Source of the DNA: Beijerinckiaceae bacterium
GTDB lineage: Bacteria > Pseudomonadota > Alphaproteobacteria > Rhizobiales > Beijerinckiaceae
Direction of reading: 5' to 3'
DNA length: 46,371 bases
Assembly: GCA_947498445.1 (NCBI GenBank)
Contig: CANMLK010000006.1
Span: 1-46,371, forward strand
Below are positions 6,410 to 10,039 of the stretch, one piece after another. The translations under genes and the position numbers were made by a program. The notes beneath the pieces are model-generated. The model made no database searches, was not told where the DNA came from, and saw only the letters and a program-made list of their open reading frames with translations. Every line of letters begins with the position of its first letter. Position 1 is the stretch's first letter.

Positions 6410-7003
6410 TTAGTCGAAGTCTGCGGCGAGCGCGGCGCGCACGTTCTCCGGCAGCACCGACATGTGCGAATAATTGGGATGCGAAAAACCAACAACCGCC
6501 TGCGCTCCAGTCTTTTTGAAAACCTCGATCTGCGCCGGCGTGAACTTGAAGTGCACGAACTGCACGGAGGAAGCCTTGCCTTCCGCCGTTGTGCGGTCCT
6601 GATCTTCTTCGGCGGTCCCCATGACCTTCTCGCCGTTCACTGTCATGAACGCTGTCGCCTCAATGCCGCCAAGACGACCAAGAATACGCTTGCGGCGCTC
6701 TGGATCGTCGATCTCGATCATGAACGTCGCGCACAGCTCCTGACCCTGCGGCACAAGCGGATTGTACGCCTTCAATTCTTCGACAACCTGCTCGTCGCCG
6801 CCCTTCTCGATGTAGAGCATTTCCTGAACCTGCATCCACATCGTATCGTAGTTCTCGAAGTAAAACGTCACGTGCGAGCCGACGTCCACGCGGCGGTCGC
6901 GCTTGATCGCCGCCATTTTCTTGCGCGTTTCCCCACGCACCTTGACGTATTCGGGGAGCGGCAGGATGTCGCCTGTGGTGATCTGGTGTTTGTGGGCCAT
7001 CAT
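6410..7003 (-). CDS. DUF3501 family protein
   Basis: 197 aa; ITTGDILPLPEYVKVRGETRKKMAAIKRDRRVDVGSHVTFYFENYDTMWMQVQEMLYIEKG... matches my recollection of DUF3501 proteins. Directly downstream of the Fe-S protein gene. Confidence 0.85.
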   Translation of the reverse strand: MMAHKHQITTGDILPLPEYVKVRGETRKKMAAIKRDRRVDVGSHVTFYFENYDTMWMQVQEMLYIEKGGDEQVVEELKAYNPLVPQGQELCATFMIEIDDPERRKRILGRLGGIEATAFMTVNGEKVMGTAEEDQDRTTAEGKASSVQFVHFKFTPAQIEVFKKTGAQAVVGFSHPNYSHMSVLPENVRAALAADFD

Positions 7004-7049: not shown

Positions 7050-8393
7050 TCAGGATTCGATGCCGTAACTTCGCGCGAAGATCTGAATCGGATGCTTCAC
7101 GACGGCAGGTTTTGGCTGGTCACCCCCCAGCGCATCAACGCCCTGCCCGATATGAACGCCAGCCAGCGGACATTCGGATGTGACGTAAGCCTTGCCGCCC
7201 TGCGCGGTCGTGCGCGCAACAGGTTTGCCGACCTTCAGCGCGATGTCAAAATTGCCCTTCTTGAAGCCCCACGCGCCGCCGTGGCCAGAGCAACGCTCGA
7301 TTACCTGCACGTCCGCTTCAGGCAGCAGCTTCAGCATTTCCGTCGCCTTCTGGCCCATGTTCTGCGCGCGCGAGTGACACGCGATATGCAGCGTCACGCC
7401 GCCGGGCACTGGGGCCAGTCCGGGCGCAAGGCCGTTCTTCTTGGCGATGTCGACAATGTACTCGCTGATGTCGAACGTATTCTGCGCCAGCTTTTTTACG
7501 TTGGCGTTGTCGGTGACAATCAGCGGCCACTCGAACTTCATCATTAACGAGCAGGACGGCACCAGCGCGATGACGTCGTAGCCTTTTTCGATCCACGGCA
7601 CGAGCGCGTCGGCGACAATCTGTGCAGACTTGGCGACTTCCGCAATCTTGCCCTGCTCAAGCATCGGCATGCCGCAGCAATGGGGATGCACGACCTCGGT
7701 CTCGACGCCGTTTTTGGCTAGCACCGCGCGCGCGGCAAGGCCCACGTCAGGATCGTTGTAATTGTTGAAACACGTGGCGTAGATCACAGCCTTGCGACCA
7801 AAGCCCGGCGCTTCGCGATTGATTTCCGGCGTGCTCGCCTTGGCCTGACTTGTCAGCGGCGAACTTGCATATGTCGGCAATTCGGCGCGCGCGTCGATGC
7901 CAGCCACCTTTTCAAGCAGTCCGCGCGTAAACTTGTTGGACTTGCGCGTCGCCCAATTGGCGACAGGCGCAACAGGCCCCGCCAACTTTGCGTTGCGGTC
8001 AGTCTGCGCGAGCTGCGTATCGAAGAAAGATGTCTCGTTTTTCTTGGCCTCGACGGCGCGATAGCGCAGCATCAGGTGCGGAAAATCGAGATTGAATTCA
8101 TGCGGCGGCACGTAGGGGCACTTCGTCATGAAGCACATGTCGCACAGCGTGCAGGCGTCAACGATGGGCTTGAAACCATCGCTCGACACCGAGTCAAGTT
8201 CGCCGGTTTTTGACTCATCGATCAGGTCAAATAATTGCGGGAATGAGTCGCACAGATTGAAGCAGCGCCTGCACCCGTGGCAGATGTCGAACACGCGGCC
8301 CAATTCCGCGTCGAGCTTCGCATCGTCGTAAAATTCGGGGCTCTGCCAATCCAGCGGATGCCGGGTTGGCGCTTCAAGACTGCCCTCTCTCAT
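7050..8393 (-). CDS. Heterodisulfide reductase/GlpC-related iron-sulfur protein (4Fe-4S clusters plus CCG domains)
   Basis: CHGCRRCFNLCDSFP and CTLCDMCFMTKCPYVPPH cluster motifs; HPHCCGMP and ERCSGHGGAWG CCG-type motifs. Start set to ATG 8393 (MREGSLEAPTRHPLDW) because the longer ORF start at 8459 lies inside a hairpin. Confidence 0.88.
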   Translation of the reverse strand: MREGSLEAPTRHPLDWQSPEFYDDAKLDAELGRVFDICHGCRRCFNLCDSFPQLFDLIDESKTGELDSVSSDGFKPIVDACTLCDMCFMTKCPYVPPHEFNLDFPHLMLRYRAVEAKKNETSFFDTQLAQTDRNAKLAGPVAPVANWATRKSNKFTRGLLEKVAGIDARAELPTYASSPLTSQAKASTPEINREAPGFGRKAVIYATCFNNYNDPDVGLAARAVLAKNGVETEVVHPHCCGMPMLEQGKIAEVAKSAQIVADALVPWIEKGYDVIALVPSCSLMMKFEWPLIVTDNANVKKLAQNTFDISEYIVDIAKKNGLAPGLAPVPGGVTLHIACHSRAQNMGQKATEMLKLLPEADVQVIERCSGHGGAWGFKKGNFDIALKVGKPVARTTAQGGKAYVTSECPLAGVHIGQGVDALGGDQPKPAVVKHPIQIFARSYGIES

Positions 8394-8430
8394 TGCCGCC
8401 CTCACTGTCTGAAGCTTTACGTGCAGGATA

Positions 8431-8466
8431 GAAAAGGCCGGCGCGGGAGACCTCCACACGCCGGCC
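8431..8466 (-). terminator. Stem-loop plus U-run between rubrerythrin and the Fe-S gene, terminator or attenuator
   Basis: Minus strand: GGCCGGCG-(15 nt)-CGCCGGCC followed by TTTTC; 8-bp perfect GC-rich stem. Confidence 0.6.
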
Positions 8467-8483: not shown

Positions 8484-8900
8484 TTACTTCATTTCGTCCA
8501 GAGCGCGCTGGAAGCGACCAGCGTGCGAGCGCTCGGCCTTGGCGAGTGTCTCGAACCAGTCGGCGATTTCCTCAAAACCTTCTTCGCGAGCCGAGCGAGC
8601 CATGCCCGGGTACATGTCGGTGTACTCGTGGGTCTCGCCAGCGATGGACGCCTTGAGGTTGAGGTCGGTCTTGCCCATCGGCAGGCCGGTGGCGGGATCG
8701 CCGCATTCCTCGAGGTACTCAAGATGGCCGTGCGCATGGCCGGTCTCGCCTTCGGCGGTGGAGCGGAACACGGAGGCGACGTCGTTGTAGCCTTCAACGT
8801 CTGCCTTCTGTGCGAAATAGAGATAGCGGCGGTTCGCCTGGGACTCGCCCGCGAACGCGGCCTTGAGGTTGTCTTCGGTCTTGCTGCCCTTGAGAGCCAT
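8484..8900 (-). CDS. Rubrerythrin (diiron ferritin-like domain only, no rubredoxin domain)
   Basis: 138 aa; [56 protein letters not shown]...[46 protein letters not shown] with ExxxxH/E-type diiron ligands. SD (AGGAGG) upstream of the ATG. Confidence 0.95.
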
Positions 8901-9029
8901 GGCTCACCTCCTGAACGTTTTCTTGAGATCGATCCGCGACTGCGAAACATGCATCAGGCACGTGCCGCGTCGACCCTCACCGATGAAGGTTCGCACGCGC
9001 GTTTTGTCAACGCATTGACCGGCGACAAA

Positions 9030-9046
9030 CTTAGATTTGTTCTAAA
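9030..9046 (-). promoter_or_regulatory. Irr-box/iron control element (ICE)-like palindrome upstream of rubrerythrin
   Basis: Minus strand TTTAGAACAAATCTAAG against the ICE form TTTAGAA-N3-TTCTAAA: 12 of 14 defined positions match. About 130 bp upstream of the rubrerythrin start. Confidence 0.6.
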
Positions 9047-9112
9047 TCCCGCCCGCCCTGCCCGCCTCGATAGGCTGGGCCAATGACGCCGATAGAGCGG
9101 ACCTATCGCCGC

Positions 9113-10039
9113 CTAACCCTTGAGGCTGCGCACGCCCGCCGGCAGCGACATGCGAATAATTCGCGCCAGCTCGATGAGAGCCTTGGTGCGCGGGCTGCGC
9201 CGACGATGCACAAGTCGCACGCGCCGAAATGCGTGATCACCCGCCAGGGGGCGCGTGGCGAGCCGGTCCGTATCGGCGCGCCCACATTCAATTGCGAGCT
9301 GAGGCAGCAGCGTCACGCCCTGCCCCGCAGCTGTCAGATGAAGCAGCGTTTCTAGACTGGTTGCGCGCATGTCCGCCATCACCCCGCCGCCCACTTGCGG
9401 ATGACTGCATAATTCCAGCGCCTGTTCGCGCAGGCAGTGTCCATCTGTCAGCAGCAGAAGCGTCTTGGGATCGATGTCTTCAACCCTGATCTCCTTGCGC
9501 GCCACCAGCGGATGGTTGGAGGGCATCGCAACGAAAAACGGCTCGTCGTAAAGATCAATCGACACAAGCTCCGGCGCATCTTCGTTGGTCGCCAGGATTG
9601 CGGCGTCGAGTTTGCCCTCGATGACCTGCGGCACGATGTGCCCGGTCGTATCCTCCACCAGAACGAGCGGCGCGTTCGGCAGCTTCTCCGCCGTCAACGG
9701 CAAAACATAGGGCATGAGATAAGGCGCGATCGTGGGGATGATCCCAAGCCGAAGACGCCCGCTCAGCGGATCGCGATTGGCGCGGGCGGCGTCCACGATA
9801 TCCTGCGCTGCGGCAATGGCCCGGCGGGCATGAGCGATGGTCTGCTCGCCCGCCTCGGTCGGGCGGATCGTGCGCCCCACGCGGCTGAAGATCTCGATCC
9901 CCAGCTCTTGCTCCAGCTTGGCGATCTGCCCCGAAAGCGTCGGCTGGCTGACGTTGCACGCCTGCGCCGCATGTCCAAAATGGGCATGGTCGGCGACGGC
10001 GACGACATATTGAAGATCACGGAGGTTCATACGGGGCAT
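9113..10039 (-). CDS. oxyR: LysR-family hydrogen peroxide-inducible regulator, OxyR-like
   Basis: MNLRDLQYVVAVADHAHFGHAAQACNVSQPTLSGQIAKLEQELGIEIFSR; contains GHCLREQALELC, matching the OxyR redox cysteine pair spacing (C-x8-C). The track ORF starts at a TTG (10057); ATGs at 10039 or 10030 are more plausible. Confidence 0.9.
   Translation of the reverse strand: MPRMNLRDLQYVVAVADHAHFGHAAQACNVSQPTLSGQIAKLEQELGIEIFSRVGRTIRPTEAGEQTIAHARRAIAAAQDIVDAARANRDPLSGRLRLGIIPTIAPYLMPYVLPLTAEKLPNAPLVLVEDTTGHIVPQVIEGKLDAAILATNEDAPELVSIDLYDEPFFVAMPSNHPLVARKEIRVEDIDPKTLLLLTDGHCLREQALELCSHPQVGGGVMADMRATSLETLLHLTAAGQGVTLLPQLAIECGRADTDRLATRPLAGDHAFRRVRLVHRRRSPRTKALIELARIIRMSLPAGVRSLKG

Follow-up and report, generated by a model that had tools for sequence, protein, structure and literature searches.

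An Apparent Irr-to-OxyR Exchange at the Promoter of a Rubrerythrin Cluster in a Beijerinckiaceae Bacterium

The window, i.e., the whole stretch of 46,371 nucleotides from a Beijerinckiaceae bacterium that was analysed, carries on its minus strand oxyR followed by a cluster of three genes for rubrerythrin, a GlpC-like Fe-S protein and a DUF3501 protein, in this order. The rubrerythrin gene (8484..8900, minus strand) encodes a single-domain protein of 138 amino acids lacking a rubredoxin domain (PF02915, 104 bits), whose relatives in the PDB include the rubrerythrins 9onm and 4di0 as well as sulerythrin. It is followed by the gene of the GlpC-like Fe-S/CCG-domain protein (7050..8459, minus strand; PF02754), which likely starts at an ATG near 8393 and is present in 121 of 129 orthologous loci, and by the third cluster gene, encoding the DUF3501 protein (6410..7003, minus strand; PF12007, 211 bits). 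Ferriperoxin, a single-domain rubrerythrin, is a peroxidase required for aerobic growth (PMC3317640).

Directly upstream of rubrerythrin and on the same strand lies oxyR (9113..10030, minus strand), a gene of the LysR family. Its product is matched best by the OxyR model NF008361 (256 bits, below the cut-off of 329) and features Cys199 and Cys208 in the OxyR register. Next to it, at 9070..9106 on the minus strand, an OxyR box is predicted, reading ATAG-N7-CTAT-N7-ATTG-N7-CTAT and thus agreeing at 15 of 16 positions with the E. coli-type consensus ATAG-N7-CTAT-N7-ATAG-N7-CTAT. Sites with up to three mismatches are expected 0.01 times per window, while this one shows a single mismatch. The box is a new observation that was absent from the original prediction, which had assumed peroxide control of the cluster in addition to iron control; with the oxyR gene and the predicted box, the peroxide part is far better backed than could be known then. 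In the genus of the window, most rubrerythrin loci have oxyR upstream and the OxyR box is conserved, and it was found with up to three mismatches in 16 of 25 oxyR-linked loci (the window being counted twice).

Further downstream, a predicted -35 element TTGACA (9005..9010, minus strand) lies 19 nt past the palindrome described below. Almost every orthologous promoter in the genus retains the motif TTGAC, in most cases at a distance of 95-98 nt from where the OxyR box starts. A weak candidate -10 element, TTCATC (8982..8987, minus strand), follows after a spacer of 17 nt; it was assigned by position only and is kept in the sister species. A strict sigma-70 promoter scan of the intergenic region found no promoter and did not pick up TTGACA.

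The gap of 212 bp from the oxyR stop (9113) to rubrerythrin contains an ICE/Irr-box-like palindrome, TTTAGAACAAATCTAAG, at 9030..9046 of the minus strand (plus-strand letters CTTAGATTTGTTCTAAA). The original prediction had described it as agreeing at 12 of 14 positions with the Irr/ICE form TTTAGAA-N3-TTCTAAA at about -130 from the rubrerythrin ATG, and this is exact: the palindrome shows two mismatches and spans -146 to -130 relative to the ATG at 8900. It is the sole match to TTTAGAA-N3-TTCTAAA with up to three mismatches in the 46-kb window, compared with 0.27 such sites per shuffled window. The genome itself (3.9 Mb, 98% complete) holds three matches with one mismatch and seven with two, so that the palindrome is unremarkable by genome-wide count alone; it is exceptional by location, because orthologous promoters have the same motif. 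One of the two-mismatch ICE-like sites of this genome, TTTAGAGGAATTATAAA (L008, around 1501), lies about 90 nt before a gene resembling the binding protein of an iron-type ABC transporter.

Scored with a matrix pooled from 77 real ICE sites, the palindrome reaches 24.0 bits, a value below which 29% of the real sites fall. About 2.5e-6 sites of this score are expected in the 212-bp intergenic region and 0.05 in the genome, figures that are approximate since they assume an independent-base background of 62% GC. With a matrix from the mbfA sites of the genus, it scores 19.2 bits and beats only 1 of 29 real sites. It is two mismatches away from the Irr form vs. four from the TTGGAA form. A near-identical site, TTTAGAACTTATCTAAA, stands beside irr in the irr-linked locus L027, and a mismatch in the same column is tolerated in the irr-linked loci L027, L040, and L046. 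Judged as a sequence match, the palindrome is beyond chance, its function being a separate matter. Operators of Fur/Mur, RirA, and Zur were considered as its identity and set aside, as the motifs known for them look unlike the dyad.

The regulator which the original prediction presupposed is encoded in the same genome. The irr gene (C148:4855-5349) reaches 184 bits with the IrrA model NF045678 against a cut-off of 150, and its protein exceeds the cut-offs of both NCBIfam Irr models. It is one of three Fur-family genes of the genome, the others being Fur/Mur-like and Zur-like according to labels assigned from the protein sequences. Irr is stable and active at low iron or heme. Clear ICE sites precede mbfA (ATTAGAAAGATTCTAAA) and the cysteine-desulfurase/suf genes (TTTAGAATAATTCTAAG). 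These two were also the only sites returned by a genome-wide scan with a sequence-only profile built from 45 ICE sites; the rubrerythrin palindrome was absent from its matches at E<=10, and the scan that had been proposed as a check of the original prediction therefore gave the site no rank. Within the genus, 28 of 29 readable mbfA promoters have a flawless TTAGAA-N3-TTCTAA core, in contrast to the variable palindrome of rubrerythrin. The palindrome of the irr promoter, ATGAGAATGTTTCTCAA, was dropped as a second in-genome ICE calibration, as it represents a different conserved form of approximately ATGAGAATNGNTCGCAA. Elements resembling the latter are conserved about 40-50 nt upstream of irr in the clade of the window (L189-L196); they are unlike ICE and possibly constitute an operator controlling irr.

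ICE sites reportedly act in both directions, going by the title of Rudolph et al. 2006 as cited in PMC2864753. The ferritin-like mbfA is repressed by Irr and, in Rhodobacter, verified as its target by gel shift (PMC3413700). In Ca. Pelagibacter, iron limitation raised rubrerythrin 1.57-fold (PMC2864753). Given the two-way action of these sites and this rise under iron limitation, the direction of a putative Irr control of rubrerythrin is uncertain.

The wider occurrence of the motif was followed in 80 named loci, to which others of the family and the genus were added. ICE sites with up to two mismatches were found in 59 of 119 non-identical regions upstream of orthologous rubrerythrin genes, and in none of 1200 shuffled upstream regions. 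In 31 loci irr is linked to rubrerythrin, nearly always as its next upstream neighbour in the same orientation; the promoter features an ICE in 28 of these, in most cases separated by 3-6 nt from a TTGAC -35 element downstream. For the five linked regulators that were scanned, the best model was always Irr, in four cases above the cut-off. A recurrent irr-rubrerythrin-FeS cluster is seen in many Alphaproteobacteria (L027, L055, L063, L074, and about 27 other loci). In Methylocystaceae-type relatives lacking a linked regulator, the ICE apparently lies on the -10 element, which by inspection would be a repressor position. For the gene family, Irr control of rubrerythrin thus seems well founded on comparative grounds. 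Irr-type boxes occur in 59, OxyR-type boxes in 20 and both in only three of the 119 upstream regions; the two types are seldom together (Fisher p = 0.001, calculated over 119 rows which are not independent). Two other motifs were seen before rubrerythrin genes. A related dyad, TTTAGACTNAGTCTAAA, is present at L036, L026, L072, L081, L082, and L087, mostly labelled Gammaproteobacteria, and a linked Fur-family gene was not found at these six loci. Another dyad, TTGCGAATNATTCGCAA, is present at L033, L051, L052, L058, L085, and L091, mostly labelled Novosphingobium or Sphingomonadaceae.

At orthologous promoters an ICE is thus widespread in Alphaproteobacteria, but in the nearest species the site is degenerate, and the lack of conservation that the original prediction named as a ground for refutation applies in part. 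In the sister species, whose rubrerythrin is identical and whose OxyR is 97% identical, this place reads ATTAGAACAAATATAAG; TTTAGATCGAAAATAAA and TTTAGAAGAAAAACAAA are found in the next relatives, which retain the left arm and the A-runs but not the right arm. Between window and sister, none of the 16 defined positions of the OxyR box differs, compared with 2 of 17 positions in the palindrome and 15 of 40 in the adjacent spacers. The lower rate of change in the 17-bp stretch hints at some constraint, which may be mild; both changes hit dyad positions. A small and informal reconstruction, made by inspecting the four closest species, indicates that the right-arm C of the window palindrome is derived and that the first T, which the sister has lost, is ancestral. 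In a tree, dyad sites are located in six relatives belonging to one clade, while the closest relatives of the window keep a half site. The six clade species carry dyads of the form TT(A/G)GAA-N3-TTC(C/T)AA or close to it, at other positions of the rubrerythrin promoter, and no such dyad was present in the rubrerythrin promoter of the other sampled genus members. In the genus members L137, L138, and L141, the dyad directly follows the -35 element, within the spacer and thus in a repressor-like place, which shows that site position turns over.

These observations suggest, with confidence evenly divided between its being right and wrong, that OxyR is the main switch of the rubrerythrin cluster and that the palindrome is a remnant or low-affinity Irr operator. 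OxyR oxidised by peroxide would activate the cluster from the box at 9070-9106, approximately nine helical turns upstream of the -35 element (start to start). The palindrome would be a remnant or weak version of the Irr operator that is widespread for this gene family in Alphaproteobacteria. If bound by Irr when iron is scarce, it would place the protein between the OxyR box and the -35 element and could bring about a mild repression or gating of the OxyR-driven promoter, so that an iron input through the palindrome would be modest at most. The takeover by OxyR we infer from the 15/16 box which adjoins oxyR, is unchanged at its defined positions relative to the sister and mostly keeps its spacing in the genus, and from the rare co-occurrence of both box types, with ICE sites in nearly all irr-linked loci. 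That the Irr operator might be residual is indicated by the constancy of the mbfA core next to a variable rubrerythrin palindrome, by a profile that finds suf and mbfA only, and by a tree with dyads in six clade relatives and half sites in the closest ones; the presence of irr in the genome counts in the same direction. Against this stand the 24.0 bits, which fall within the range of real ICE sites and together with the near-identical site at L027 make full Irr binding possible, and the slower change of the 17-bp stretch than of the spacers.

The original prediction, that iron status controls the cluster, thus keeps its basis for the gene family through the presence of irr and the orthologous ICE sites, but is weakly founded for the site in the window. 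A fully functional Irr operator, through which one promoter would integrate iron and peroxide and iron limitation would lead Irr to repress (or activate) rubrerythrin, is rather unlikely here, even though the ICE is family-wide at this promoter, irr is at hand, a pooled-matrix score of this height is hardly expected anywhere in the genome and the mismatch is tolerated in three irr-linked loci; the repression of mbfA and the response in Ca. Pelagibacter would fit as well. What speaks against it is that the palindrome is unconserved in the sister and other close relatives, that it ranks above a single mbfA site with the genus matrix and is missing from the profile matches, and that it is situated 19 nt from the -35 element instead of 3-6 nt, as in irr-linked loci, or on the apparent -10, as in other family members. 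The degenerate reads of the close relatives could also mean that the palindrome is fortuitous, arising from a conserved AT-rich element (TTTAGA plus A-runs), e.g., a -10 or UP-like element of an OxyR-driven promoter, in which one A-to-C change completed the right arm. Indeed, the window species shares TTTAGA or TTAGA and the As with its closest relatives, but TCTAA is found only in the window; the distance between the element and the start of the OxyR box is 59-60 nt in four of these species, and by position the element is where the -10 of a promoter abutting that box could fall. We nevertheless regard this as improbable, as six clade species have TT(A/G)GAA-N3-TTC(C/T)AA-like dyads in the same promoter, each unlikely by chance, which implies a dyad-binding protein in the clade. 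Such a protein might be a different regulator preferring the form TTTGGAA-N3-TTCCAAA: in four relatives (G161, G166, G139, and G149) the rubrerythrin dyads are of the TTGGAA-N3-TTCCAA type while the Irr boxes of mbfA remain TTAGAA-N3-TTCTAA, and a covariation test found that mbfA does not switch to TTGGAA where rubrerythrin does. This is very improbable, however, considering that the genome has just three Fur-family genes, that no candidate regulator gene is linked and that the site in the window is closer to the Irr form.

Extending the proposed role of OxyR as main switch with a residual Irr operator to the evolution of the promoter leads to a further, more tentative suggestion, for which we see slightly less than an even chance. 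An adjacent Irr with an ICE abutting the -35 element, as is common across Alphaproteobacteria, would have been replaced in one genus of Beijerinckiaceae by OxyR with a box at fixed spacing, leaving an Irr site in the middle of decay or re-tuning. If true, the promoter of the window species could take both inputs simultaneously, and the locus would offer a natural test of how peroxide comes to replace iron as the signal. Fenton chemistry ties the sensing of iron to that of peroxide, for which Irr and OxyR, respectively, are the classic regulators in these bacteria. The apparent Irr-to-OxyR exchange at an orthologous promoter is the more solid and more interesting fact compared with the Irr reading of the single site: one promoter that follows the Irr type in many lineages but the OxyR type in a single genus, with living intermediates, allows one to ask how and why one signal supplants the other.

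Several known systems resemble the locus in part. The Irr/ICE regulons of Rhizobiales and Rhodobacterales (mbfA, suf, ccpA, bfr) share with it the 17-bp palindrome TTTAGAA-N3-TTCTAAA, the presence of irr and strong ICE sites at mbfA and suf of the same genome. However, the target in the window is a soluble single-domain rubrerythrin instead of mbfA, and its palindrome is degenerate, unconserved in the sister and away from the core promoter. The irr-rubrerythrin clusters of other Alphaproteobacteria (31 loci) are alike in the orthologous cluster and the ICE-type box, but nearly always have irr adjacent upstream and an ICE that mostly abuts the -35 element, whereas the window has oxyR in this place and irr elsewhere. 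With OxyR-activated peroxidase promoters of the E. coli type (ATAG-N7-CTAT), it has in common a LysR regulator featuring Cys199/Cys208 and a four-part box beside the target; in those promoters the box touches the -35 element, while the predicted box of the window leaves about 60 nt between its end and the conserved TTGAC downstream. Finally, like rubrerythrins of the ferriperoxin/sulerythrin type, the protein, known here from its sequence, is a ferritin-like diiron protein lacking a rubredoxin domain, but its gene differs in being clustered with Fe-S and DUF3501 genes.
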